From Phyllobacterium myrsinacearum (GTDB taxonomy: Bacteria > Pseudomonadota > Alphaproteobacteria > Rhizobiales > Rhizobiaceae), in contig NZ_JACGXN010000003.1 in the NCBI RefSeq assembly GCF_014138285.1, positions 434,001 through 498,000 on the forward strand: a stretch of 64,000 nucleotides of DNA, in the 5' to 3' direction. The first letter of the stretch is position 1. Every line of letters starts with the position of its first letter. The notes beneath the pieces were generated by a model. It did no database searches. It was given only the letters and a program-made list of their open reading frames with translations, and was not told where the DNA came from. Shown here piece by piece: positions 4,231-26,059 of this stretch. Both the position numbers and the translations under genes were made by a program.

Positions 4231-5907
4231 TCAGGCGATGTGCCGGGCCCGGGGATCCGGGATCGGCACTGCTGCCATGAGCGCTTTCGTATAATCATCC
4301 TGCGGATTTTCAAACACGGCACGCCGTGTCCCCATCTCGACGATGCGGCCACCGCGCATGACCGCAACATTGTGCGACATGCGCTCGACCACGGCCATGT
4401 CGTGCGAGATGAAGAGATAGGCGAGGCCCATCGTCTCCTGCAATTCGAGCATCAGATCGAGAACACGCGCGCGCACCGACACGTCGAGCGCCGCCACACT
4501 TTCATCCGCCACTATCAGTTTGGGCTGCAAAGCGAGCGCACGGGCAATGCAGATGCGCTGGCGCTGACCGCCAGAGAATTCGTGCGGATAGCGCGTCGCC
4601 GCATCCGGCTGGAGACCGACATGCCGCAGTAATTCGGCAACCCGGTCGTCACGCTCGCTCCTGTCGCCAAGCCCATGGATAACAAGCGGCTCGGCAATGG
4701 CCGCGCCCACTGCCATGCGCGGATCGAGCGAGGCATAGGGATCCTGAAAAATCATTTGTGCCGAACGGCGAACCGGCCGCATCTGGCGGGCGCTCAGGCC
4801 CGCAATATTCTGTCCGTCAATTACCACGTGGCCGGTAAAGGGTATAAGGCCCAGTACCGCCTTGCCGGTGGTTGATTTGCCGGAACCACTTTCACCGACG
4901 AGCCCCAGCGTTTCGCCGGGGCGCAGTTCAAACGAGACCTCGCTGACGGCGGCGGCCGGCAGCATACCCCTGAACAGCCTGCGCACCGGACTGCCATAGG
5001 TTACATCGAGATTACGCACCTGCAGGATTGGCGCAGGCGATACGGAAACGCTTGGTGCGGTGATTGCACTGACGCGCGGCGGCGCGTCGTTGCCAGCATG
5101 GGCACCCAGACGCGGCACGGCGGCGAGCAATTCCTGCGTGTAAGGCTGTTTGGGATTTTCAAATATGGACAGGGCGTCGCCCTGCTCAATGATGCGGCCG
5201 TTCTGCATGACGGCGACACGGTCGGCCATTTGCGCGACCACGCCCATATCGTGGGTGATGAGGATGATCGACGCGCCGAATTCCTGTTTCAGCTCACGCA
5301 TCAGTTTGAGGATTTGCGCCTGTACGGTCACATCGAGCGCCGTGGTTGGCTCGTCAGCGATCAGCACTTTCGGACGGCAGGACAGCGCCATAGCAATCAT
5401 AACGCGCTGGCGCATCCCGCCGGAGAGTTCATGTGGATATTGCGTCAGACGGCGGACCGGTTCAGTGATATGTACCGCATCCAGCATCTGGCGGGCGATT
5501 GTCTCCGCCGCACCGCCTTCCGGACCCTGGTGCTCACGGATCGCTTCGGTCAACTGCGCGCCGATGGACATGACCGGATTGAGCGAGGTCATTGGCTCCT
5601 GAAACACCATGGCAATATCACCGCCGCGCACGCTGCGCATGGCGCGATTGGACAAAGCCACCAGATCCTTCTCGCCCAGCCTGATAGTACCGGATGCAAC
5701 CTGCAACGAGGCCTTCGGCAACAGTCCCATGATAGAAAGCGAAGTGACGGATTTGCCTGACCCCGATTCCCCGGCAATGCACAATGTTTCGCCTGATATC
5801 AGATCAAAGCTGACATCGTGGAGTACCCGCTGCCGGCCTTCGGGCGTGCGGGCATCGACGCAGAGATTGCGGACTGTCAAAATAGGCGTTGGGGCAGACA
5901 TTGTCAC
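4231..5907 (-). CDS. Dipeptide-type ABC transporter ATPase, fused DppD-DppF form
   Basis: 558 residues holding two complete ATPase domains in one chain. First domain: Walker A GESGSGKS (46-53), signature LSGGMRQR (161-168), Walker B LIADEPTTALD. Second: Walker A GESGSGKS (338-345), signature FSGGQRQR (444-451), Walker B LIVADESVAALD, with DES in place of the usual DEP but the catalytic Glu kept. An Ala/Pro/Ser-rich linker (about 268-293) joins them. Each half would pair with one of the two permeases of this operon. The start overlaps the formamidase stop by four bases (ATGA). Last gene of the amide operon. Confidence 0.93.
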   Translation of the reverse strand: MTMSAPTPILTVRNLCVDARTPEGRQRVLHDVSFDLISGETLCIAGESGSGKSVTSLSIMGLLPKASLQVASGTIRLGEKDLVALSNRAMRSVRGGDIAMVFQEPMTSLNPVMSIGAQLTEAIREHQGPEGGAAETIARQMLDAVHITEPVRRLTQYPHELSGGMRQRVMIAMALSCRPKVLIADEPTTALDVTVQAQILKLMRELKQEFGASIILITHDMGVVAQMADRVAVMQNGRIIEQGDALSIFENPKQPYTQELLAAVPRLGAHAGNDAPPRVSAITAPSVSVSPAPILQVRNLDVTYGSPVRRLFRGMLPAAAVSEVSFELRPGETLGLVGESGSGKSTTGKAVLGLIPFTGHVVIDGQNIAGLSARQMRPVRRSAQMIFQDPYASLDPRMAVGAAIAEPLVIHGLGDRSERDDRVAELLRHVGLQPDAATRYPHEFSGGQRQRICIARALALQPKLIVADESVAALDVSVRARVLDLMLELQETMGLAYLFISHDMAVVERMSHNVAVMRGGRIVEMGTRRAVFENPQDDYTKALMAAVPIPDPRARHIA

Positions 5908-6848
5908 GCGAACACGATCCTGGGGAAGTAGAATGATACAACCCAGTTTGGCGCATCGACGATTTCACTGATGCGCAGATCGCCGCAGACCGAGCAAAGC
6001 AGATAGGCATCGACAGCGCTCATGTCATGTTCTTCCCCCAGCAGATCAATCATCCGCATCAGTGCTTCGCGCGCGCCGGTCATCAGGTCCGGTCCGATGC
6101 CTGTCGTCACCTCGTAACCCGCGCCATCAAGATGGCGCGTCACCGGCCCGGTGGTGGTGAAACGCGGGCTTTTCAGCCGGGCGTCTTTCACAAGTTCAAT
6201 GGTGGCTTCGGCTTCCATCTGGCTTTCGATGGCGGTGCCGCACACCTCGCCATCACCCTGCGCCGCGTGCGTATCGCCGATGGAAAACAGCGCCCCGTCG
6301 ACTTCAACGGGGAGATAAAGCGTGACCCCTGATGTCAGGTCACGGATATCAAGATTGCCGCCAACACGGCGCGGCGGAACGATCGAATGTACGCCCGGTT
6401 CTGCCGGGGCAACGCCAATGGTTCCGGCAAAAGGTTTCAATGGCACGCGCCCGCCCGGACCATACAAGGCCGGAGCCATGCTGATCGGATCATAATTCCA
6501 CATGTGCAGGGCGGGCTCTTTGAACTGATCGGCCAGGAGACCGAAGCCTGGAATGTTCGCCGTCCAGCCTACACCTGATGGGACAAAGCGGCGGATGGTC
6601 ACTTTCAGCGCATCGCCGGGCTTGGCGCCTTCGACATAGACGGGGCCGGTAACCGGGTTGATCTTGCCGAAATCCAGCGTGCCAAGCATTTCCACCGTCG
6701 CACCCTTGCCGAGCTGACCGCCGGAGGAATCCAAACATTCGAAATGAATGGTCTCACCAGCCTTGGCAACCAGCGCCGGTTCAAAATCACGGCTCCAGCC
6801 GAAGTGATGTTTGGCACGATGAATGGTATGGGTGCAAACGATGCACAT
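5904..6848 (-). CDS. Formamidase/acetamidase-family hydrolase
   Basis: 314 residues of the FmdA/AmdA family, which hydrolyse formamide, acetamide or short amides to ammonia and the acid. The block SIGDTHAAQGDGEVCGTAIE is the family hallmark. The start at 6848 (MCIVCTHTIH) is preferred to an upstream Met at 6887, whose extra residues lie over the hairpin at 6876-6899. The gene sits between the solute-binding protein and the ATPase in the same operon, so imported amide is probably hydrolysed at once in the cytosol. An AmiC/AmiR pair at the head of the operon supports an amide inducer. Confidence 0.88.
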   Translation of the reverse strand: MCIVCTHTIHRAKHHFGWSRDFEPALVAKAGETIHFECLDSSGGQLGKGATVEMLGTLDFGKINPVTGPVYVEGAKPGDALKVTIRRFVPSGVGWTANIPGFGLLADQFKEPALHMWNYDPISMAPALYGPGGRVPLKPFAGTIGVAPAEPGVHSIVPPRRVGGNLDIRDLTSGVTLYLPVEVDGALFSIGDTHAAQGDGEVCGTAIESQMEAEATIELVKDARLKSPRFTTTGPVTRHLDGAGYEVTTGIGPDLMTGAREALMRMIDLLGEEHDMSAVDAYLLCSVCGDLRISEIVDAPNWVVSFYFPRIVFA

Positions 6849-6875
6849 GTCAGATCTCCCGGAAATTGAATGAGG

Positions 6876-6899
6876 TCCCGGGGGCATGTTCCCCCGGGA
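6876..6899 (-). promoter_or_regulatory. Intercistronic hairpin after the solute-binding-protein gene
   Basis: Perfect 9-bp inverted repeat (tcccggggg / cccccggga) with a 6-base loop between the binding-protein stop and the formamidase start. There is no U-tract on the minus strand, so it is more likely an mRNA-stabilising or processing element that raises binding-protein expression relative to downstream genes than a full terminator. Confidence 0.55.
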
Positions 6900-6917
6900 A
6901 AATGTCAGCGCAATGCG

Positions 6918-8537
6918 TTATTGTTTTACAAAAATCGCATCGTAATTGATGACGCGGGTCGGATCGACATAGATCTTGTCGGAGCCGCCCATACGCGCCG
7001 CCTTGGCAACCACACGACGTTCATTGATGACAGGAATCCACGGGGCATCCGCCATGATGTCGGTGAATATCTTGCCCCATGCGGCGGCGCGGTCGATGGT
7101 CTTCGCCGGATCGGACATGGAGTCCGCTGCAACCGCGCGCCTGTCGAGATCGGCATTGCAGTACCATGACCAGTTCCAGCCACCGCTGACAGCACCGGCG
7201 CAACCAAGGATTGGTCCGTAGAAGTTTGATGGATCGGGGAAATCGGCAATCCACGCCATGCCGCCGGACCAGATCATCGGGGCTTCGCCTTCGGTGCCGC
7301 CTGCGGCAATCACGTTGGACTGGGCCAGCGCGCGCACTTCCGCCTTGACGCCAATGGCCGCCAGATCCTGCTGGATGGCCTGGGCAATACGCGGCTGCGG
7401 ATCGGTGTTGGTGGAATAGAGCACGGTCTGGAAGCCATCGGGGAAACCGGCTTCCGCCAGAAGCGCTTTGGCCTTGGCCACATCATAGACATAGCCGGTG
7501 AAGCTCTTGTCATAGCCCGGCATGGCCGGTGGCAAGGGCTGGTTGGCGGCGGTGGCGCGACCGTTGAGAATACGGGTGATGCGCTCCTTGTTGACGGCCA
7601 TATTCACCGCCTGACGCACCTTCACATTGTCGAAGGGTTTGATCCTGGTGTTAAGCGTGACATAGCCGGTATGCAACTGTTCGCCATCAACAATCATTTT
7701 GGCGCCATCGGGGGAATTCTTGATCTCAAGGAATTTCGCCGGAGGAATGCCATCACCGGCAATATCGACCTCGCCCTTCTGCAGACGCAGCAGAGCGACA
7801 AGCGGCTCCTGACCGACTTCGACCGTGAACTTGTCGATATGCGGCATTTCCTTGACGAAGTAATCGGGATTGCGCTCGAACACGAGCCTCTGGCCGATGG
7901 TCCACTCCTTCAGAATGAAGGTGCCGGAGCCGACAGGCTTCTTGCCGAAATCGCCGCCCGCCGCCTCAACGGCCTCGTGCGGAACGACCGAAGCAAAGTT
8001 GATGGCAAGCACATGCAGGAACGTCGCGTCTGGGCGCGAAAGATGGAAGATGACGGTTGCATCATCCGGCGTTTCGATGCCTTCGAGCGTTGTGGACCTG
8101 CCGCCGGACACGTCCTCATAACCCTTGATGGATCCAAAGAAACCCGCACCCGGGCCTTGCGTCTTCGGATTGACCGCGCGCTCGATCGAGTATTTCACAT
8201 CCGAGGCAATAACCTCACGGCCATTGGTGAATTTCACGCCCTTGCGCAGTTTGAACGTGTAGGTGAGGCCATCCGCCGAGACGTCAAAGGTTTCGGCCAG
8301 CGAAGGGATCAGGTCAGGCGTTCCCGGCGTGTAGTCCATCAGCCGGGAGTAGAGGCTCTTGATCATCGACCAGTTGACCCAGTCATAGCCGACTGCCGGA
8401 TCGAGCGTGGCGATATCGTCCTTATAGGTGATGAGCACGTCGCCGCCCTGTTTCGGCGTTTCCTGTGCCCATACGGGCAATGGCGACAGGGCGAGCACCG
8501 TTGCCAGGGTGGTGTTGCGAAGCCAGCGATTTAACAT
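6918..8537 (-). CDS. ABC transporter substrate-binding protein, family 5
   Basis: 539 residues with a clear Sec signal peptide (hydrophobic residues 10-19, cleavage after VWA at about 24). The mature part has the family-5 hallmarks: GGDVLITYKDDIATLDPA near the N-terminus, FKLRKGVKFTNGREVIASDV, and VRQAVNMAVNKERI. This periplasmic class binds dipeptides, nickel, glutathione or other small solutes. In this operon the ligand is probably an amide-containing compound, which is inference from context. Confidence 0.93.
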   Translation of the reverse strand: MLNRWLRNTTLATVLALSPLPVWAQETPKQGGDVLITYKDDIATLDPAVGYDWVNWSMIKSLYSRLMDYTPGTPDLIPSLAETFDVSADGLTYTFKLRKGVKFTNGREVIASDVKYSIERAVNPKTQGPGAGFFGSIKGYEDVSGGRSTTLEGIETPDDATVIFHLSRPDATFLHVLAINFASVVPHEAVEAAGGDFGKKPVGSGTFILKEWTIGQRLVFERNPDYFVKEMPHIDKFTVEVGQEPLVALLRLQKGEVDIAGDGIPPAKFLEIKNSPDGAKMIVDGEQLHTGYVTLNTRIKPFDNVKVRQAVNMAVNKERITRILNGRATAANQPLPPAMPGYDKSFTGYVYDVAKAKALLAEAGFPDGFQTVLYSTNTDPQPRIAQAIQQDLAAIGVKAEVRALAQSNVIAAGGTEGEAPMIWSGGMAWIADFPDPSNFYGPILGCAGAVSGGWNWSWYCNADLDRRAVAADSMSDPAKTIDRAAAWGKIFTDIMADAPWIPVINERRVVAKAARMGGSDKIYVDPTRVINYDAIFVKQ

Positions 8538-8567
8538 TGTGTTCCCTTTTCTTGTTCTGGTTCAAAC

Positions 8568-9488
8568 TCAACGCGCACGGATGCGCGGATCAATCAGCGG
8601 AGCGATGATGTCGGCAAGCAGATTGCCAAGCACGATCGCCAGCGCAGAAACGAGGGTCACGCCCATGATGATGGGGATATCGACCTGCTGGATGGCCTGC
8701 CATGCCAGTTGGCCAATGCCGGGCCAGCCATAGACAGCTTCCACCACAACCACGCCGCCCATGAACTGGCCGATATCGATCCCGATCATCGCAATGATAG
8801 GAAGAAGCGCGTTGGGCAACGCATGCCGCAGAACGATGCGGGCCGATGACAAGCCCTTGGCGCGCGCCGTGCGCACATAATCCTGATTGAGCACATCGAT
8901 CATCGCTGAGCGAACCATGCGCGCATACCAGCCTGCGCCGAGAATGCCGAGGGTTGCGGCGGGCAGGACAACATGCGCGGCGCTGCCAAATCCACTCATC
9001 GGAAACCAGCCGAGCGTGACGGCAAACACATAAAGCAGCAACAGGGCAACGACGAATTGCGGCGCCGAAACGCCGACGAATGAAGCCATCATCACCACGC
9101 GATCGACAGGTCCGCCACGGCGCAATGCGGCGATGATGCCGAGGATCAGTCCCAGCACCACTTCGACGAAAATACCGGCGGCCATCAGGATCAGGGTTGC
9201 AGGCAGACGGGCCATGATCAGCGCGCCGACATCTGTCTTTTGTGCATAGGAGCGGCCAAGATTGCCCTGAAGAATACCGTGCAGATAGGTCCAGAACTGC
9301 ACGGGAAAAGGTTGATCGAGCCCAAGTTCCCGGCGGATATTGGCGACGGTCTGCGCGGTGGCGCTGCGTCCGGCAATCATACGGGCAGGATCTGCGGGCA
9401 AGGCATAAAGCAAAAGGAAAGTGATCGCGGCAACGCCCAGCAGGATCAGCGCGGTTTGCAACAGACGGCGCAGAACGAGAAGCAGCAT
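8568..9488 (-). CDS. ABC transporter permease, DppB type
   Basis: 306 residues; the start at 9488 (MLLLVLRRLLQT) is one base downstream of the partner permease stop, so an upstream in-frame start is unlikely. N-terminal helix (about 10-30), then the DppB-type periplasmic loop with GLDQPFPVQFWTYL and GNLGRSYAQ, and the EAA ATPase-contact loop around VRTARAKGLSSARIVLRHAL. Five to six membrane segments. It forms the translocation path with the DppC-type subunit. Confidence 0.93.
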   Translation of the reverse strand: MLLLVLRRLLQTALILLGVAAITFLLLYALPADPARMIAGRSATAQTVANIRRELGLDQPFPVQFWTYLHGILQGNLGRSYAQKTDVGALIMARLPATLILMAAGIFVEVVLGLILGIIAALRRGGPVDRVVMMASFVGVSAPQFVVALLLLYVFAVTLGWFPMSGFGSAAHVVLPAATLGILGAGWYARMVRSAMIDVLNQDYVRTARAKGLSSARIVLRHALPNALLPIIAMIGIDIGQFMGGVVVVEAVYGWPGIGQLAWQAIQQVDIPIIMGVTLVSALAIVLGNLLADIIAPLIDPRIRAR

Positions 9489-9489
9489 G

Positions 9490-10338
9490 TCAGCCCCTCC
9501 CGCGCTGGGTCGGGTCGAGAATATCGCGCAGCGCATCGCCGACCAGATTGAAGGAAAGGGCTGTCAACAGAATGATCGCACCGGGGAAGAACACCAGCCA
9601 TGGCGCGGCCTGAAAATAGCTCTGGCTTTCGAAAATGATGTTGCCCCAGGACGGCTGCGGCGGCTGGACGCCGATGCCGAGAAACGACAGCGTCGCCTCA
9701 AGCAGCACTGTGGTGGCAATGCCGAGTGTGCCCCAGACAATCGCCGTCGGCATCAGATGCGGCAGGATATGCACGAAGAGAATGCGCAGGTGCCCGGCGC
9801 CGAGCGAGCGTTCGGCCAGGATGAAGTCGCGCTCCACCAGCCCGCGCGTTTCCGTATAGACGATGCGCGCCACCTGCACCCAGTTAACCAGCGCAATAAC
9901 CATGGCAACGATCCACAGGCTCGGGTGCAACAATGCCGCCAGCACAATGGCGAGCAGCAGCGCAGGAAAGGCCATCATCAGATCGGTGAACCGCATCAAC
10001 AGGCCGCCAACGGCCCCACGCAGATAGCCGGAAAGAACACCGACGAGCAGGCCAATGGCGACGGCAATGCCATTGGCGACAAGTCCGATGACCAGCGACG
10101 TGCGTGCCCCAAACAGCAACCGCGAGAACAGATCCCGCCCGAGCGTGTCGGTGCCAAGCAGGAACCGGGTGCTGGGCGGCAATGGTGCGCCTTCAATGGA
10201 GAGACCATCGAACATCTGGTTGTCAGGACTATAGGGGGCAATCCATGGTGCGCCGAGCGCCATCAGCACGACGACGGTCACGATGATCAGCCCGAACAAT
10301 GCCGATGGCTGGCGCAGCATCGTCTTCAGAACGTGCAT
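9490..10338 (-). CDS. ABC transporter permease, DppC type
   Basis: 282 residues beginning MHVLKTMLRQPSALFG. The N-terminal helix (LIIVTVVVLMALGAPW), HFLLGTDTLGRDLFSRLLFG-like segment (GTDTLGRDLFSRLLFGAR), and the EAA loop ILAERSLGAGHLRILFVHIL identify the DppC class. Start and upstream amiR stop overlap by one base (TGATG), indicating translational coupling. Partner of the DppB-type permease. Confidence 0.93.
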   Translation of the reverse strand: MHVLKTMLRQPSALFGLIIVTVVVLMALGAPWIAPYSPDNQMFDGLSIEGAPLPPSTRFLLGTDTLGRDLFSRLLFGARTSLVIGLVANGIAVAIGLLVGVLSGYLRGAVGGLLMRFTDLMMAFPALLLAIVLAALLHPSLWIVAMVIALVNWVQVARIVYTETRGLVERDFILAERSLGAGHLRILFVHILPHLMPTAIVWGTLGIATTVLLEATLSFLGIGVQPPQPSWGNIIFESQSYFQAAPWLVFFPGAIILLTALSFNLVGDALRDILDPTQRGRG

Positions 10339-10919
10339 CAACCGGCCTCCGGCAGCGGTTCTGCACCGGCGAGAATAAGGGCTGCGACCTGCTCCATGGG
10401 AAAGCGCCGCTGCATCGCGCAATTGCGCAGGATGCTGTAGGCGTGTTCCTCATCAACTTTGCGCGCCATCATGATTTTCTGCACAGCCGCGTGCACCAGC
10501 GGCCGCAGCCGCACACGCTCTTCCAGATGCTGCAAGTGCTTGGCCGCTGCGGCCCTTTCCTCATGGATGGCAACAGCCATGACCAGGGCAGGATAGACCG
10601 CCGACGTTGCCACAGGCTTGGCGATGATTGCGCCCGCGCCCTGTTGCATTGCCCAGGCAATACGGCCAGGCGCTTCGGAACCCAGCAGGGCAACAACAGG
10701 CAGAGATGCTTTGCCGTCATTCCATGGCAGAAGGTCATCCCAACCCTGATCAGCATCAATGAGCACAATATCCGGCAGTTCGTGCGCGCCGAGCGGCTGC
10801 CATTGCACGCAAACCGTCAGGCCCAGCAGCTTGAGCTGGCGGGTCAGGCGTTCGGTTGTTGCCTCCGGGCGATGCAGGATCGTGGCATGCCAGCCGGTAA
10901 AATTGGGGGTCTCTCTCAT
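10338..10919 (-). CDS. ANTAR-domain antiterminator, AmiR-like
   Basis: 193 residues: an N-terminal receiver-like domain that keeps the fold (DIVLIDADQGWDD, VVALLGSE) but is part of a protein class normally not phosphorylated, a helical linker (AAAAKHLQHLEERV), and a C-terminal three-helix ANTAR RNA-binding domain (about 125-185, VQKIMMARKVDEEHAYSILR). In Pseudomonas, AmiR binds the leader RNA and stops premature termination. It overlaps the AmiC-like gene by four bases and the DppC-type gene by one. A matching leader terminator lies at 12062-12114. Confidence 0.88.
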   Translation of the reverse strand: MRETPNFTGWHATILHRPEATTERLTRQLKLLGLTVCVQWQPLGAHELPDIVLIDADQGWDDLLPWNDGKASLPVVALLGSEAPGRIAWAMQQGAGAIIAKPVATSAVYPALVMAVAIHEERAAAAKHLQHLEERVRLRPLVHAAVQKIMMARKVDEEHAYSILRNCAMQRRFPMEQVAALILAGAEPLPEAG

Positions 10920-12052
10920 GAAACGATCCGCAATCTGACGGGCATTTTGGTGCGGCGCCGAGTGAGGTACGGATCGGCTGCTATAGCCGCCTGTGAATTG
11001 ACGATGTCAAACCCGTTGTCATCATTGATCCGGCCGAGGTGGAACGGCAATGCCATGTGATTGGTGTCAGGATCGATCTTCACCGGGCCGTATACGGTCG
11101 ACAGCAATGTGCCCGACACCAGACGGCGCACGGTTTGCGGATCGTCCGTTCCGGCGGAGATAATCGTTTCGGCGCATAGCTTGGCCGCCGTATAGGCACT
11201 GGCAAAGATGTTGGAGAAGTGACGATCCGGGCCGAAATGTTCGGAGGCGTGCAACTTGAAAGCGAGATTCTCAGGCGAAACCAGACTATCGAAATAAGCA
11301 GCCACGGACAGATGCCCCGTAGCAACCCCAGCACCAATCTCGTCCAGCTCACATTCCGAGAGGTCGCAACTGACGACGGGGCAATTTTCCGGCAGGAAGG
11401 CAGGATCGCGCTCACCGAGTTCTCGGAATGCCCGAAGAAACGCATAACTCGCCGGGCCAATCAGATTATTGAGGACAAAGCTGGGCTGTCGCTGCTCGAT
11501 ATCGAGAATGATGCGCTCGACAGCAGTTTCTTCGAGCGGAAGATAGCGCTCGCCGAGCACCTCACCGCCAGCATTGTTGATCAGCTCGCGCGCAAGCCGG
11601 TTCATCTCCCATCCCCAAACATAATTGGCGCCGACAAGATAGGGCCGACGACCATAACGCGGCAGGAGGTAATCGAACAGCGGCAGCAGATGCTGGTTGG
11701 GACAAGCGCCTGTATAGATGACGTTCTCGTTGGCCTCGAACCCCTCATAGGGGCACATATACCAGAGCAGGCCGTCATGTTTTTCCACGAGCGGAATGAC
11801 TTCCTTGCGGGCGATGGAAGTGATGGTTCCGACGATATGGCGGCAACCGGACTCGCGCAGCATCGAGCGCGCACCTTCGAGATAATCCGGTATGTGTCCC
11901 TGCGGATCGATATAGACCGCTTCAACGGTGCCGGGATGCGCAGCCTCTATTTCTTCCATGGCAAATTCGGCGCCGTCACGGCTGTCGCGGCCAATAGCGG
12001 CGTAAGGGCCGGTCGTCGAATAAAGAATCCCAATTTTGACTGCGTCGCCCAT
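10916..12052 (-). CDS. AmiC-like amide sensor (periplasmic-binding fold, cytosolic)
   Basis: 378 residues of the type-I binding-protein fold (KIGILYSTTGPYAAIGRDSR at the N-terminus; GTITSIARKEVIP; GANYVWGWEMNR). There is no signal peptide, as expected for AmiC, the cytosolic ligand sensor that sequesters AmiR until an amide binds. UrtA and FmdD urea or amide binding proteins are relatives but carry signal peptides. The stop overlaps the amiR-like start (ATGA). The start ATG at 12052 has a gggggataa Shine-Dalgarno region. Confidence 0.85.
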   Translation of the reverse strand: MGDAVKIGILYSTTGPYAAIGRDSRDGAEFAMEEIEAAHPGTVEAVYIDPQGHIPDYLEGARSMLRESGCRHIVGTITSIARKEVIPLVEKHDGLLWYMCPYEGFEANENVIYTGACPNQHLLPLFDYLLPRYGRRPYLVGANYVWGWEMNRLARELINNAGGEVLGERYLPLEETAVERIILDIEQRQPSFVLNNLIGPASYAFLRAFRELGERDPAFLPENCPVVSCDLSECELDEIGAGVATGHLSVAAYFDSLVSPENLAFKLHASEHFGPDRHFSNIFASAYTAAKLCAETIISAGTDDPQTVRRLVSGTLLSTVYGPVKIDPDTNHMALPFHLGRINDDNGFDIVNSQAAIAADPYLTRRRTKMPVRLRIVS

Positions 12053-12061
12053 TTATCCCCC

Positions 12062-12114
12062 AAAACCAAAAGCCCCATGACGCAGCGCCCATCGAAGATG
12101 GGGCGTCATGGGGC
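12062..12114 (-). terminator. Leader terminator hairpin upstream of the AmiC-like gene
   Basis: On the minus strand a perfect 11-bp outer stem (gccccatgacg / cgtcatggggc, 12072-12114) encloses a second stem (cccatc / gatggg), followed by tttt at 12068-12071 and a second tttt at 12062-12065. It lies between the predicted promoter and the start codon, the position that ANTAR-type antiterminators control. Confidence 0.75.
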
Positions 12115-12127
12115 CAAACTGCCCGTC

Positions 12128-12167
12128 GACTATCGAAGTCATGTGGATGCAGCTGAGTCTTTGCTCA
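12128..12167 (-). promoter_or_regulatory. Candidate ANTAR-target stem-loops in the leader RNA
   Basis: Two small stem-loops precede the terminator on the minus strand: TGAG/CTCA around the 6-base loop CAAAGA (12154-12167) and GACT/AGTC around a short loop (12128-12140). ANTAR targets are paired hexaloop stems with conserved A1 and G4. The first loop has the right length, but A and G are offset by one unless pairing shifts, so the match is imperfect. Confidence 0.4.
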
Positions 12168-12180
12168 ATCTGCAGGCACG

Positions 12181-12209
12181 ATTAAAATACGTGCAGCCAC
12201 CCTTGTCAA
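12181..12209 (-). promoter_or_regulatory. Predicted sigma70 promoter of the amide operon
   Basis: Minus strand: -35 TTGACA (12204-12209, perfect), 17-bp spacer, -10 TTTAAT (12181-12186, 5 of 6). The predicted start is about 12174, giving a leader of about 120 nt. A 7-bp inverted repeat (cttgtca / tgacaag) has its second arm on the -35 box, so an additional repressor or activator is possible. Confidence 0.6.
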
Positions 12210-12612: not shown

Positions 12613-12649
12613 TATACAAATATGGAAGTCGTTAGAAAAAGATTGGCTG
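12613..12649. repeat. Dispersed repeat A, 5'-type end (copy 2)
   Basis: The core caaatatggaagtcgttag matches the copies at 2859 and 20684. It replaces the 3' part of the PIN-domain gene and supplies its stop codon. Confidence 0.55.
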
Positions 12650-12850
12650 AACTTCAAGACCTGCAGCATCAACAAATGCGTCAAGTTCCTCAATAGTCTT
12701 GTAACGCACTGCCAGCTCGGCGTAGACGATATTGTTAATTAACAGCGGGCCGCGCAACGAAGCGGTTTCCAGTTGTGCAATCGACCAATCCGCCCGATTT
12801 GGGTCATCTGTAACAAGATCAAGCAGCACGTTCGTATCAATAAGGGTCAT
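12632..12850 (-). pseudogene. VapC-type PIN toxin, C-terminally truncated
   Basis: 72 residues starting MTLIDTNVLLDLVTDDPN, the first catalytic Asp block of PIN-domain ribonucleases, with the second acidic residue in NIVYAELAVRY. Full-length VapC is about 130 residues; the last two acidic blocks are missing, and the sequence leaves homology at GLEV, where the dispersed repeat begins. It should be inactive. It overlaps the antitoxin stop by three bases (ATGA), the normal vapBC arrangement. Confidence 0.72.
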
Positions 12851-13080
12851 CCTTCATCGCGCGTGAGCGCCATGATCGCGTCCGTATTAAGCCCCTCTCC
12901 AGCATGACCGCGCAGATTGTTAAATCGGCTCTTCGGCTGATGTCTGTCAGCACGAGTAATCACAACGCTTCCGTTGCTGGCTCTATGAAAATCGATTTTA
13001 CTGCCAGGTACGATTCCAAGAAAATCACGCACTGGCTTGGGAATGGTCACTTGCCCCTTTGTCGTCACGGTAGTTGTCAT
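12847..13080 (-). CDS. AbrB/VapB-type antitoxin
   Basis: 77 residues with the swapped-hairpin DNA-binding motif MTTTVTTKGQVTIPKPVRDF and PGSKIDF, the AbrB/SpoVT fold used by VapB antitoxins to bind their own promoter. The start at 13080 is chosen because the family begins at this Met; an upstream Met would add 19 unrelated residues. The toxin partner is truncated, so this may be an orphan antitoxin. Confidence 0.8.
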   Translation of the reverse strand: MTTTVTTKGQVTIPKPVRDFLGIVPGSKIDFHRASNGSVVITRADRHQPKSRFNNLRGHAGEGLNTDAIMALTRDEG

Positions 13081-13284
13081 TTCTGCCTCGGTAATAATCG
13101 CTCCACAGAAGGTAATGCCTTTGAGGCACGGTTTCAAATATTTCTCCCTGCTTCAACAGCAGACTATTGCCAATCCGCAACTCATCTCGCGTATTATCGC
13201 TACACAACTCGAGGCAATACACCCCATTTGCGCTGCCCTATCGGTCAGAACGTAAATTGCGTCCGCGTCTCAGCTAAACAGAGA

Positions 13285-22549: not shown

Positions 22550-22885
22550 ATGCCTACACCACATAACCCTCCCGCCGCTGTGCGGCGCATCCTGCGCAAG
22601 CTCGGTGCAGACATCCACGATGCGCGTCGGCGTCGACGGCTTCCAATGTCTGTCGTCGCAGAGCGCGCCTTCACGTCCCGCTCGACCTTGCAAAAGGTCG
22701 AGGCTGGGGACACCAATGTCAGTATCGGCATTTATGCGGGCGTCCTTCAGGCGCTCGGTCTGCTCGATGGTCTGGGCCAGATCGCCGACATCGGCAACGA
22801 CCCGGTCGGACAAGCGCTGGCCAGCGCGGAACTGCCGAAGCATGTCCATCTCAAGCGAACAGCCGGATCATCTAGCGGTGGCTGA
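22550..22885 (+). CDS. HipB-like HTH antitoxin
   Basis: 111 residues. XRE helix-turn-helix in the middle (LGADIHDARRRRRLPMSVVA to TSRSTLQKVEAGDTNVSIGI). HipB binds the operator and neutralises HipA. The ATG at 22550 is preferred over an upstream one. The HipA gene starts inside its 3' end, so the two are translationally coupled. Confidence 0.85.
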   Translation: MPTPHNPPAAVRRILRKLGADIHDARRRRRLPMSVVAERAFTSRSTLQKVEAGDTNVSIGIYAGVLQALGLLDGLGQIADIGNDPVGQALASAELPKHVHLKRTAGSSSGG

Positions 22886-24125
22886 TTTCGAGATACATAT
22901 CGACCGGGACGGCCGCACGCGTCCTATCGGCCTGGCGAGGAGCAATCGCGTCCGAGGCACGCAGACTATCCTTTTCGAATATGATGCCGGGTGGCTCGCC
23001 GATCCAGACCGGTTCTCGCTTGAGCCTGCCCTTGCCCTGACCCGCGGTGCCTTCGCCCCTCCTGCCGGACTGACGACTTTCGGCTCCATCGGAGATTCAG
23101 CGCCCGACACATGGGGGCGCCGTCTTATGCAACGGGCCGAGCGCCGTCTTGCCGAACGTGAAGGCCGCGCCGTTCGCACCCTTGCGGAAAGCGATTACCT
23201 GCTCGGCGTCGCCGACGAGACCCGCCTGGGTGCCCTCAGATTCCGCTGGGCAGGCGAAGAGATGTTCCAGGCTCCTATCCGCGCCGGCGTCCCAGCCCTG
23301 ATCGAACTCGGGCGGTTGCTCCAGATCACCGAACGGATCCTCCGGGACGAGGAAACGGACGAGGACCTTCAACTCATCTTTGCCCCCGGCTCTTCCCTCG
23401 GCGGTGCCCGGCCGAAAGCCTCGGTCATCGACCAGCACGGACACCTCTCCATCGCCAAGTTTCCGAAGGAGACGGACGACTACAGCATGGAGACATGGGA
23501 GGAGATCGCGCTGCGGCTGGCCGAGCAGTCCGGCATTACCACGCCGCACCATGAGCTGATCAAGGTCGCTGACAAGGCGGTGATGCTGTCCCGACGCTTC
23601 GATCGTTCCGGCGCAATCCGCATTCCTTTCCTGTCAGCGATGGCGATGATGGGCGCCAGGGACGGTGAGCGCGGCAGCTACCCTGAGATCGTCGACGCTC
23701 TTACACAACATGGCGCGCAGGGGAAGACCGACGCCCATGCGCTCTATCGGCGGGTCGTCTTCAACGTGCTGATTTCCAATGTCGATGATCACCTGCGCAA
23801 CCATGGCTTCCTTTGGCTCGGCAAGGCGGGATGGTCCCTTTCTCCCGCCTATGACCTGAACCCCGTGCCCACCGATCTCAAGGCGCGTGTGCTGACGACG
23901 AACATCGACCTCGACGAAGGCACCTGCTCGCTCGACCTGCTTGAGGCGGCTTCGGAGTTCTTCGGCCTCACGCTTCCACAGGCCCGCGCGATCATCAAAG
24001 AGGTAGCGACCGTTACTGCGACGTGGCGAGAGACCGCCAAGGCGACCGGCGCCCGTTCCGCCGAGATCACCCGGATGGCCAGCGCCTTCGAGCACGATGA
24101 TCTAAAACGGGCATTGGCGTTATAA
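22842..24125 (+). CDS. hipA: HipA-family kinase toxin
   Basis: 427 residues. HipA kinases phosphorylate glutamyl-tRNA synthetase or other synthetases and halt translation. Seen: N-terminal HipA domain (FEYDAGWLADPDRFSLEPAL, GSIGDSAPDTWGRRL), ATP-loop region APGSSLGGARPKASV, the lysine strand LSIAKFPKETDD, and the catalytic block NVLISNVDDHLRNHGF followed by LSPAYDLNP. The start is the ATG at 22842 or the GTG at 22878. A second HipA module converges on it from 26059. Confidence 0.88.
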   Translation: MSISSEQPDHLAVADFEIHIDRDGRTRPIGLARSNRVRGTQTILFEYDAGWLADPDRFSLEPALALTRGAFAPPAGLTTFGSIGDSAPDTWGRRLMQRAERRLAEREGRAVRTLAESDYLLGVADETRLGALRFRWAGEEMFQAPIRAGVPALIELGRLLQITERILRDEETDEDLQLIFAPGSSLGGARPKASVIDQHGHLSIAKFPKETDDYSMETWEEIALRLAEQSGITTPHHELIKVADKAVMLSRRFDRSGAIRIPFLSAMAMMGARDGERGSYPEIVDALTQHGAQGKTDAHALYRRVVFNVLISNVDDHLRNHGFLWLGKAGWSLSPAYDLNPVPTDLKARVLTTNIDLDEGTCSLDLLEAASEFFGLTLPQARAIIKEVATVTATWRETAKATGARSAEITRMASAFEHDDLKRALAL

Positions 24126-24185
24126 AGGCAGCGACAAGATCGCTGACTCAATTCGCGGATCGGCTGAGAGGGATCGATTCAGATT

Positions 24186-24423
24186 TGCAAAACTTAGGGT
24201 CGGCTATTCCAAGCTGGTTCGCAGGGGACGAATATCTGCGCGCCTGCACCTTGCCGATACGGGGGTCTTTATCTTCCGACTTCGCTTCGAGGACGATCAG
24301 CGGCTTGCCGTCCTTGTCCAGCAATAGGAAATCGATGAAACCTTTCGGGCTTTTTTCAAAGTCCGCGCCGAGGCTTTCGACGTATTCAGGCTTTAGCTTG
24401 ACGTTCGGCTCATCAATGCGGCC
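24186..24423 (-). pseudogene. Restriction-subunit (HsdR-type) N-terminal fragment
   Basis: The frame reads GRIDEPNVKLKPEYVESLGA, FIDFLLLDKDGKPLIVLEAK and DPRIGKVQARRY, the PD-(D/E)XK nuclease block at the start of type I restriction R subunits and related helicase-nucleases (D...EAK). Only about 80 codons survive between two HipA modules. It looks like a scar of gene replacement in a defence-type locus. Confidence 0.68.
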
Positions 24424-24440
24424 AGATTAAAATTCAGCCT

Positions 24441-24719
24441 TCATTGCGCCTTTGGAACAAACCCCACACCAAATCCGAACAATCGGCCAATCTTCGCTAA
24501 GGTTTCGAGCGTTGGGTTCGCTGTGCCGGCTTCAATCTCAGCAACCTGGCGCCTGGTAAGCGATAGCGTCCTGGCGAACTCATCTTGAGTCAAACCAAAC
24601 CCCTTACGGATCTCCGCAACCGCTTCGGGCAGCCTTAAATCGCCGTTTCGCGCACGCTCGGCCAGTGTTCGCCGGTTTTCAAGAATCTCTTCTTTCGTGG
24701 GTTTCTTCCAGCGGGCCAT
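24441..24719 (-). CDS. XRE-family HTH antitoxin
   Basis: 92 residues with an HTH in GLTQDEFARTLSLTRRQVAE IEAG (about 47-70) and the helix-rich N-terminus usual for stand-alone antitoxins. It starts 17 bases after the HipA stop, so here the kinase gene comes first and the regulator second, the reverse of the neighbouring hipBA. Confidence 0.83.
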   Translation of the reverse strand: MARWKKPTKEEILENRRTLAERARNGDLRLPEAVAEIRKGFGLTQDEFARTLSLTRRQVAEIEAGTANPTLETLAKIGRLFGFGVGFVPKAQ

Positions 24720-24736
24720 TTAGCTGTCCTCCGGCA

Positions 24737-26059
24737 TCACTGGCACGCCGCCAGAACGCTATCCGCGATTTCCATGCAGCGTCCCATTGCACGCTCCAGA
24801 ATTTCCGGAGACGCACCCATGTCCTTCCCCTTATCTGGTGCATGCTGCAGGTGTTCGGCGAACGTGCAAAGCGCAAACGCTACAGCTTTCTGCTCTGCAG
24901 GATCAGGCATCAGCTCAGCGCAAATGCGCTTCCAATCGGGAAGATGATCGCGACCATCGTCACGCATCGTCGCCCATCGGGTAGAGCGAACGATACCCTC
25001 TTTGGCGAGCCGCATTGGTGCGAAATCAAAGAGCGGAGATAGACGAATCATGCCGTTCTGGTGCTTGCTGAGAGCCGAATTTCGGCCGTGATTGTCGGGA
25101 TTGCCGAGCGCCAGGTTGGCGATATCGCGTTTAAGGTATTCAACAATGTCCACGAAGGGATCAGCCGAAGACTGGCGCAGAACGTCGATATAGGCCTCAT
25201 GTGTGCCGACATGGCCGAAATCGGCAACGCCGATCGCGGACACGAGGCTTTCCTGGCCCAGCCGGACGGCTCCGCCGCCTTCGCTCTTCTTCCGGTCGAA
25301 GCGGGGAATGATCAGGACGCCTTCGGCATAGGTCGACGGTTCGCTGACCTTCAGACCGATCTCTTGAGCGATCCGCGAATAGAGGGCTTCGCCTTCGAGA
25401 ATCAGGCGGTCCACGGGCTCATTGCTGCGTACCAGCTTGACGATGACGTGGCGCACAGCCTCATCGTCGGTCACGAAGCTGTCAGGATAATAGAGCCCGT
25501 CATTCGCCTGGGTCATAGAGACCTTCGGCCATTCTCCTTGCAGGCCGCCGGAGCCGGAGGCAAGCATTCCAAAGCGATCGGCGACTTCCATGAAGCGATC
25601 CGACCGCTCAAGGATTTCCGCTTCTGTAACCCCTTGGCGCTGTACACCACGCAGCCGTTCCGTTTCGGCCTCTTCCGCTTCTTTGATCCGGATATTGCCT
25701 ATGCCGCCCGTCGCCGATCGCAGAAGCAGCGGGAGATCGGAAGCGCGAGAGCCTTCAGCGAGCCCGAGGTGGTCGGCAAGCTTTCGCCTTGCATGTCCCT
25801 GGGGCATAAGATCCAAGAGGAACGGAGGCCAGTTGCGGCTATATCGATTTTCGAGATCAACGGGATAACGGACTGACAAGGCGCGATGGTCGCGGACCGT
25901 CTTTCCGGCCGCAAACTCCGCCGATGCCACAGTGACGAAATAGTCGAGATCGTAATCGGTGATGGACGCGCCCTGGAAGCCGGCCACGTCGTCCTTGAGT
26001 TCTAGCGTCGCGGCGTGATGCCACTCACCATTAAAATGGATTTGGAGCGTGAGGCGCAT
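24737..26059 (-). CDS. hipA: HipA-family kinase toxin
   Basis: 440 residues, the length of E. coli HipA. Landmarks: N-terminal HipA fold (RYPVDLENRYSRNWPPFLLD), the ATP-binding strand VRHVIVKLVRSNEP, GVLIIPRFDRK, catalytic loop IANLALGNPDNHGRNSAL and metal loop LSPLFDFAPM. The ATG at 26059 overlaps one arm of a 9-bp inverted repeat (operator). It is followed by its HTH partner. Not closely similar to the other HipA here, so this is not a recent duplication. Confidence 0.9.
   Translation of the reverse strand: MRLTLQIHFNGEWHHAATLELKDDVAGFQGASITDYDLDYFVTVASAEFAAGKTVRDHRALSVRYPVDLENRYSRNWPPFLLDLMPQGHARRKLADHLGLAEGSRASDLPLLLRSATGGIGNIRIKEAEEAETERLRGVQRQGVTEAEILERSDRFMEVADRFGMLASGSGGLQGEWPKVSMTQANDGLYYPDSFVTDDEAVRHVIVKLVRSNEPVDRLILEGEALYSRIAQEIGLKVSEPSTYAEGVLIIPRFDRKKSEGGGAVRLGQESLVSAIGVADFGHVGTHEAYIDVLRQSSADPFVDIVEYLKRDIANLALGNPDNHGRNSALSKHQNGMIRLSPLFDFAPMRLAKEGIVRSTRWATMRDDGRDHLPDWKRICAELMPDPAEQKAVAFALCTFAEHLQHAPDKGKDMGASPEILERAMGRCMEIADSVLAACQ

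Follow-up and report, generated by a model that had tools for sequence, protein, structure and literature searches.

A conserved Phyllobacterium operon for the predicted uptake and hydrolysis of amino-acid amides, with a candidate RNA switch in its leader

The 64,000-nucleotide (nt) stretch of Phyllobacterium myrsinacearum DNA analysed here (the window; contig NZ_JACGXN010000003.1, positions 434,001 to 498,000) contains an operon that is probably inducible and that probably serves to import L-amino-acid amides and release their amide nitrogen. Its seven genes all lie on the minus strand, in the order amiC-like sensor, amiR-like antiterminator, two permeases, binding protein, FmdA_AmdA-family hydrolase and fused ATPase (Table 1). 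Gene calls and family matches bear out this layout, which had been described in an earlier note. That note's "overlaps at most junctions" was slightly generous: amiC/amiR and amiR/dppC truly overlap, by 4 and 1 nt, and the dppC/dppB and FmdA/ATPase junctions touch (within 2 nt, or overlapping if alternative starts are used), but gaps of 30 and 69 nt stand between dppB and the binding-protein gene and between the latter and FmdA. We placed the FmdA start at 6848 by its homologues, the listed open reading frame (ORF) beginning at 6887; an alternative GTG start of the ATPase is possible at 5907. The right edge given earlier, 12209, falls on the opening T of a conserved TTGACA.

The gene order is conserved. 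With an alignment of seven FmdA proteins as the query, a collection of 84,980 genomes, one per species, gave at least 551 stretches confirmed by the FmdA search, and the best 80 loci were kept. All seven genes were present in the same order and direction in 69 of these 80; because the loci were found through FmdA, this fraction tells how often FmdA accompanies the operon and not how frequent the operon is. Since the order is kept in so many loci and the flanking genes differ among five records compared, a chance arrangement is excluded; the conserved order in related genomes that the earlier note had suggested looking for is present. The remaining 11 loci are varied. Five (L055, L059, L071, L079, L082) have a second architecture in which amiC-amiR and FmdA (79–82% identical) stand with a distant family-5 importer whose binding protein is 29–30% identical. 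Two (L074, L088) missed the count solely on a spacing test, with a partial match to the binding protein or ATPase. No amiC or amiR was seen at L084, FmdA was without other visible operon genes at L080 and L086, and L070 is a short contig.

Plasmid p_2 of Phyllobacterium sp. 628, the nearest named relative found, carries the same operon: its first six genes encode proteins 93–98% identical to those of the window, and its ATPase is 90% identical. The searches for relatives may have excluded records that belong to the window's genome. The same operon occurs at three Mesorhizobium loci (L057, L062, L081). Among 199 evenly sampled genomes of the order, 21 have AmiR relatives (E 1e-20 or better), 8 at 56% identity or more and 13 at 44% or less. 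FmdA relatives on plasmids came to 1,177 records, 754 of them from Klebsiella, and among the matches listed the full-length Klebsiella rows are about 66% identical to the window's FmdA. The copy on Klebsiella plasmid pKP1-19 (L005, 3860–11689) looks decayed in amiR and the first permease in this record: it gave no AmiR match at E 1e-5 and a partial match to the first permease, and its incomplete gene table lists neither gene.

The binding protein points to the ligand. It aligned to PDB entry 8upi over residues 27–538 (512 residues) with one gap and an E-value of 8.4e-252, the next best match being 5e-61; the binding protein of Mesorhizobium locus L057 also matched 8upi (1.8e-232). The PDB names 8upi merely as a "peptide ABC transporter substrate-binding protein" (ABC, ATP-binding cassette). 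We take it to be MeAmi_SBP, a Mesorhizobium protein solved with L-serinamide that binds L-amino-acid amides, and a 2024 paper in Biochemistry reportedly places about 610 such binding proteins in FmdA_AmdA operons; a calcium site of structural importance is also reported for these systems. The window shares the corresponding features, an SBP_bac_5 protein near 8upi and ABC genes together with an FmdA_AmdA gene in one operon. In DppA, Asp408 binds the α-amine of the peptide and Arg355 its carboxylate, and this residue pair is present only by half. The Asp aligned with Asp408 (D432 in the window) is kept in 81 of 81 binding proteins (L005 and L074 were dropped as incomplete). The four-residue DppA segment containing Arg355 falls in an alignment gap and has no counterpart as aligned; 8upi aligns to the window protein without a gap there. 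A ligand with an α-amine and without a carboxylate, such as an amino-acid amide, therefore fits, and so does the earlier guess of a polar amide, given the 8upi-like protein.

The hydrolase had been called a formamidase. This name is too specific, because the protein, a short FmdA_AmdA form, scored 107.9 bits against a cut-off of 500 for the formamidase equivalog FmdA (NF045496). Its nearest PDB entries bear the name acetamidase, and it belongs to FmdA_AmdA rather than to the nitrilase family of the Pseudomonas amidase AmiE. The motifs GGNxD and GDTHAAQGDGEVCG are invariant in the window's protein and six relatives, and the two best PDB matches have a similar version of the stretch, so the gene likely encodes an active enzyme.

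The sensor, whose homologues include P. aeruginosa AmiC and urea receptors, is encoded together with an AmiR_N-ANTAR protein, as in an AmiC/AmiR pair. Since no signal peptide is apparent in its sequence, it is probably cytoplasmic. The contacts of UrtA to urea include Gln144 and Asn246 (available text of PMC10392092); UrtA contact positions were mapped by count onto an alignment of related UrtA proteins. The AmiC pocket keeps Ser79, Tyr98 and Tyr144 in 82 of 82 proteins each, Ser79 and Tyr144 corresponding to UrtA Ser122 and Tyr190. Gln144 is replaced by Pro101 in 81 of 82 and Asn246 by Ile or Val198 in all 82, and because of these replacements urea sensing appears unlikely. Where UrtA has Ser274 and P. 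aeruginosa AmiC has Thr, 74 of the 82 proteins carry Asp (D230 in the window's AmiC) and the other 8 carry Asn. In a small comparison (which ignored L119, not an AmiC), the FmdA-linked AmiCs of the window, seven relatives, L126 and the urt-type operons L121, L123 and L124 had NYxW[GA]W, with L121 carrying Ser at the pocket position held elsewhere by Asp or Asn, whereas three AmiE-, nitrilase- or urease-linked AmiCs (P. aeruginosa, L125, L120) had DYx[YF]PR and Thr. We infer that the pocket Asp may hold the α-amine of the ligand. As a module, amiC-amiR also stands beside urease (L120), a urt-type importer with FmdA (L121, L123, L124) and nitrilase-family genes (L125). These settings, and a Klebsiella operon described in the available part of PMC13209695, do not sustain the earlier impression that the combination of AmiC/AmiR, importer and amide hydrolase is exceptional.

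Table 1. Operon genes and leader elements, in coordinates of the window
Feature	Position	Strand	Basis
Sigma-70-like promoter: TTGACA 12209-12204, 17-nt spacer, TTTAAT 12186-12181	12181..12209	-	read in sequence
TGC-N11-GCA dyad over inferred transcription start, just downstream of -10	12162..12178	-	dyad counts in 74 leaders
Leader hairpin P1, UGACU[UCGAU]AGUCG	12127..12141	-	recurrence in related leaders
Leader hairpin P2, GGGC[AGUUUG]GCCC; 3' arm doubles as the beginning of the terminator's 5' arm	12111..12124	-	
Intrinsic terminator before amiC start: stem 12114-12072, U-rich tail 12071-12063	12063..12114	-	
amiC-like sensor, 378 aa (amino acids)	10916..12052	-	Peripla_BP_5 E 6.6e-106; P. 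aeruginosa AmiC 1pea E 6.4e-47
amiR-like antiterminator, 193 aa	10338..10919	-	AmiR_N + ANTAR
DppC-like permease, 282 aa	9490..10338	-	BPD_transp_1 + OppC_N
DppB-like permease, 306 aa	8568..9488	-	BPD_transp_1 + BPD_transp_1_N
Periplasmic binding protein, 539 aa	6918..8537	-	SBP_bac_5; near 8upi
FmdA_AmdA-family amide hydrolase, short form, 314 aa	5904..6848	-	FmdA_AmdA family match
Fused two-domain importer ATPase, GsiA/OppDF type, 556 aa	4231..5901	-	family models

The leader before amiC has the anatomy of a candidate RNA switch. A promoter-like pair of a TTGACA-like and a -10-like element is present in 74 of 74 leaders (81 minus L005, L006 and the five second-architecture loci) versus 7.8% of mononucleotide shuffles; a simple promoter scan misses the window's pair because it demands A at -10 position 2. 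From promoter to amiC, the leader folds with a z-score of -3.49, better than all 200 shuffles. The terminator was found in 81 of 81 leaders, a set from which L003 and L004, which duplicate L011 and L022, and a leader of identical sequence were dropped and in which the second-architecture loci are included. Hairpin P2, with a 6-nt loop and sharing bases of the terminator's 5' arm, was found in 80 of 81 (19.5% of dinucleotide shuffles), and P1 with P2 in 77 of 81 (4.1%), P1 being required to have a stem of at least 4 pairs and to end 0–3 nt before P2. Within this permitted range the linker was 2–3 nt in 75 of the 77. The exceptions were L059, without P2, and L005, L006 and L068, without P1 by this rule. 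Two hairpins, a constrained linker and a second hairpin that overlaps the terminator are the published anatomy of ANTAR antiterminators (available text of PMC3369931 and PMC8934654), and here too the second of two hairpins is exclusive with the terminator. Because the terminator and this overlapping two-hairpin candidate antiterminator directly precede amiC, the presence of an AmiC/AmiR pair is consistent with control of the whole operon by antitermination, in keeping with the earlier proposal that the pair controls importer and hydrolase.

Covariation in the terminator was strong, 6 of 11 outer-stem pairs having changed on both sides in an alignment (A3) of the window's leader with 38 of the 47 non-redundant ones; A3 omits by choice L040, L045, L049, L055, L071, L078, L079, L089 and L090, which are divergent or have an irregular P1, and this omission favours structure. 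For P1 and P2 together, 10 cells changed on both sides against 4.5 in shuffles, above all 500 of them; 89.8% of cells were paired against 87.0% in shuffles, and 81.6% in P1 alone. A covariance model built from 39 leaders gave E 2.6e-23 for the window's own leader, as expected of a training sequence, and the rest of the whole genome gave a weak match to this hairpin read on the opposite strand (0.017) and then nothing better than a site on another contig (E 0.1). The model matched 10 of the 199 genomes, the window's own included; this sample may share species with the training set. Nine of the matches lie 1.14–1.23 kb upstream of amiR on the same strand, which leaves room for one amiC (a gene searched for in the window's genome only); the tenth, in G078 (E 0.006), is in a genome with no AmiR match. 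All 8 genomes (the window's included) whose AmiR is 56% identical or more carry the leader, about 1.15–1.19 kb upstream of amiR. No Rfam family matched the window at gathering thresholds.

Of the 74 leaders, 59 have GC-N11-GC and 22 have TGC-N11-GCA at the inferred start site, where shuffles would give 8.2 and 0.6. The dyad resembles the NtrC consensus, yet it overlaps the start site; it is perhaps a nitrogen-control site.

In the reading that we favour, RNA polymerase would start at the promoter (12209–12181) and, with no ligand present, would mostly stop at the terminator (12114–12063), AmiC keeping AmiR inactive. An amide that entered would be bound by AmiC, and the freed AmiR would stabilise P1 and P2. 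The terminator's 5' arm begins with bases that P2 occupies, and formation of P2 is therefore proposed to block the terminator and so to let transcription continue across the regulator, importer and hydrolase genes. Amide handed over by the binding protein would then enter through the DppBC-type importer and be split by the FmdA-type enzyme into ammonia and an amino acid.

Several observations weigh against this scheme. In each of the two loops of the ANTAR target an A at position 1 and a G at position 4 are important, as they are in the AmiR and NasR targets, according to the available text of PMC3369931; our use of this rule rests on published papers. The leaders depart from it. P2 loops have A1 in 79 of 80 cases and G4 in 2 of 80, the two being L005 (Klebsiella) and L089 (Pelagibius). 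P1 loops (n = 77) are 5 nt long in 48 cases, 6 nt in 14, 7 nt in 12 and 4 nt in 3, and none of the 14 six-nt loops has both A1 and G4. Because of this departure, binding of AmiR to P1 and P2 is not assured. For P1 and P2 in A3, the covariation score was reached by 278 of 500 shuffles and is thus no better than shuffles, double-change pairs were matched by 41 and pair types by 163 of the 500, and two slid versions of the structure scored equal or higher; the P2 stem is nearly invariant and silent on covariation. Furthermore, of the 13 genomes whose AmiR is at most 44% identical, 12 had no leader-model match.

In EutV, Lys149 contacts G4 (available part of PMC8934654). The counterparts of EutV Tyr164, Met172 and Arg142 are an aromatic residue, Met and Arg in 81 of 81 AmiRs, and the Lys149 position is V, I, M or L in all 81. 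A coupled loss of Lys149 and G4 was considered as an explanation; it is weakened by control ANTAR proteins that do without Lys149 and yet have G4 loops, so that the relation is not one-to-one. The eight controls (L119–L126) all lack this lysine, with V, I or T in its place; L126 represents the same operon type at a greater distance, and L122 and L119 have no annotated amiC alongside. On visual reading, with no statistics applied, G4 is still present in the two loops of the L121 leader, in the two of the L124 leader and in the L125 segment behind amiR, and these loops keep A1 as well, save one L125 loop with U1; the stem of the second L124 hairpin is merely 2 base pairs. Since L121, L124 and L125 keep G4 without the lysine, loss of Lys149 is insufficient to explain loss of G4. 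The NasT region of the window's own genome, taken as a positive control for A1/G4, showed no dual hairpin by scan or by leader reading.

A further point against amino-acid amides comes from Klebsiella: acetamide uptake has been proposed for an amiC-amiR-ABC-"amiE" operon, and the lysate of that strain had acetamidase activity (available part of PMC13209695). The operon could then scavenge small neutral amides such as acetamide and formamide, its importer boosting their uptake, and a regulator pair homologous to that of P. aeruginosa and a hydrolase of the FmdA_AmdA family would suit this role. We nevertheless consider it unlikely, in view of the missed FmdA equivalog cut-off and of an AmiC pocket with Asp or Asn for the P. 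aeruginosa Thr and NYxWGW for DYIYPR. It is also hard to square with a binding protein that is nearest to 8upi and retains the Asp that presumably binds the α-amine in DppA. The leader terminator might instead be a plain attenuator or an upstream terminator, with AmiR acting elsewhere; the broken loop rule is in line with this, and the GC-N11-GC dyad could be the real control point. Against it stand the single strong leader-model site of the genome, directly before amiC, the joint recurrence of P1, P2, their close spacing and the terminator, and the constant placement of nine of the ten model matches upstream of amiR, which together make this explanation quite improbable to us. Still harder to accept, and in our estimate very improbable, is a dipeptide or glutathione-type importer joined to an amidase solely for nitrogen economy. 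Permeases, binding protein and ATPase do match Opp, Dpp, Nik and Gsi models, the permease and binding-protein scores all lying below curated cut-offs; but the segment of Arg355, which holds the carboxylate in DppA, lacks a counterpart as aligned, where 8upi aligns gap-free, and the hydrolase accompanies the operon in most of the best loci, found as these were through FmdA.

On top of amide uptake and hydrolysis, we tentatively advance a more specific proposal that we stop short of calling probable. Rhizobial AmiRs may read a non-canonical ANTAR target, with a P1 loop of 4–7 nt and a P2 hexaloop that has A1 and lacks the G4 held to be obligatory, as a one-target switch that includes their own gene. 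The AmiC pocket may have been re-cut for amino-acid amides by NYxWGW and by Asp or Asn in place of the acetamide Thr, which would let sensor and importer recognise the same ligand with two unrelated folds. If so, pocket class should predict hydrolase class, NYxW[GA]W going with FmdA and DYx[YF]PR with an AmiE-like amidase or urease. The pocket signature could then help to predict from sequence the amide served by an AmiC/AmiR operon. Should the leader work as drawn, this family and perhaps others would escape searches for ANTAR targets that use the A1/G4 rule. Amino-acid amides, moreover, look like a little-studied nitrogen source for rhizobia.

Some observations concern the surroundings. The operon lies on contig C3 of a 5.97-Mb genome, in which RepC-family replication genes were found on contigs C6 and C16 and none on C3. 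Adjoining it is a VapBC-like toxin-antitoxin pair, with PIN-domain and MazE-type antitoxin ORFs at 12635–13083 on the minus strand, and two HipA-like genes lie face to face at 22605–26059.

Among known systems, the operon is closest to those of MeAmi_SBP (8upi), which reportedly likewise combine an SBP_bac_5 importer and an FmdA_AmdA hydrolase in one operon; we found no difference in kind and regard the operon as a member of this amino-acid-amide uptake type, reportedly described before. New here are the candidate leader switch with its single strong site, the departure from the loop rule and the sensor-pocket signature. We recognised no account of this operon's leader, inducer or switching in the literature searched, and a search on the R. 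johnstonii 3841 operon by guessed locus tags gave a single match, on neighbouring thiamine genes. Klebsiella plasmid pKOS9-W1 carries amiC, amiR, four cluster-5 ABC importer genes and an amidase in one 8-kb operon (2026; available part of PMC13209695). It resembles the window in this gene set; its amidase is called amiE and the whole is read as an acetamidase operon. Plasmid pKP1-19 has homologous genes with an FmdA 66% identical to the window's and a different leader sequence, and by analogy with it the "amiE" of pKOS9-W1 may be an FmdA_AmdA gene. The P. aeruginosa ami operon has a homologous sensor and ANTAR regulator, and its leader too has a hairpin overlapping the terminator (available text of PMC3369931). 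The window differs from it in having FmdA_AmdA instead of AmiE, a family-5 ABC importer, the regulator genes first and behind the terminator, loops without G4, and the pocket NYVWGW in place of DYIYPR. The eut leaders of Enterococcus, read by EutV/EutW, share the two hairpins, the constrained linker and the overlap of the second hairpin with the terminator (PMC3369931 and PMC8934654, as far as available). The window family is set apart from them by V, I, M or L for Lys149 throughout its AmiRs and by a P1 loop that is most often 5 nt long.

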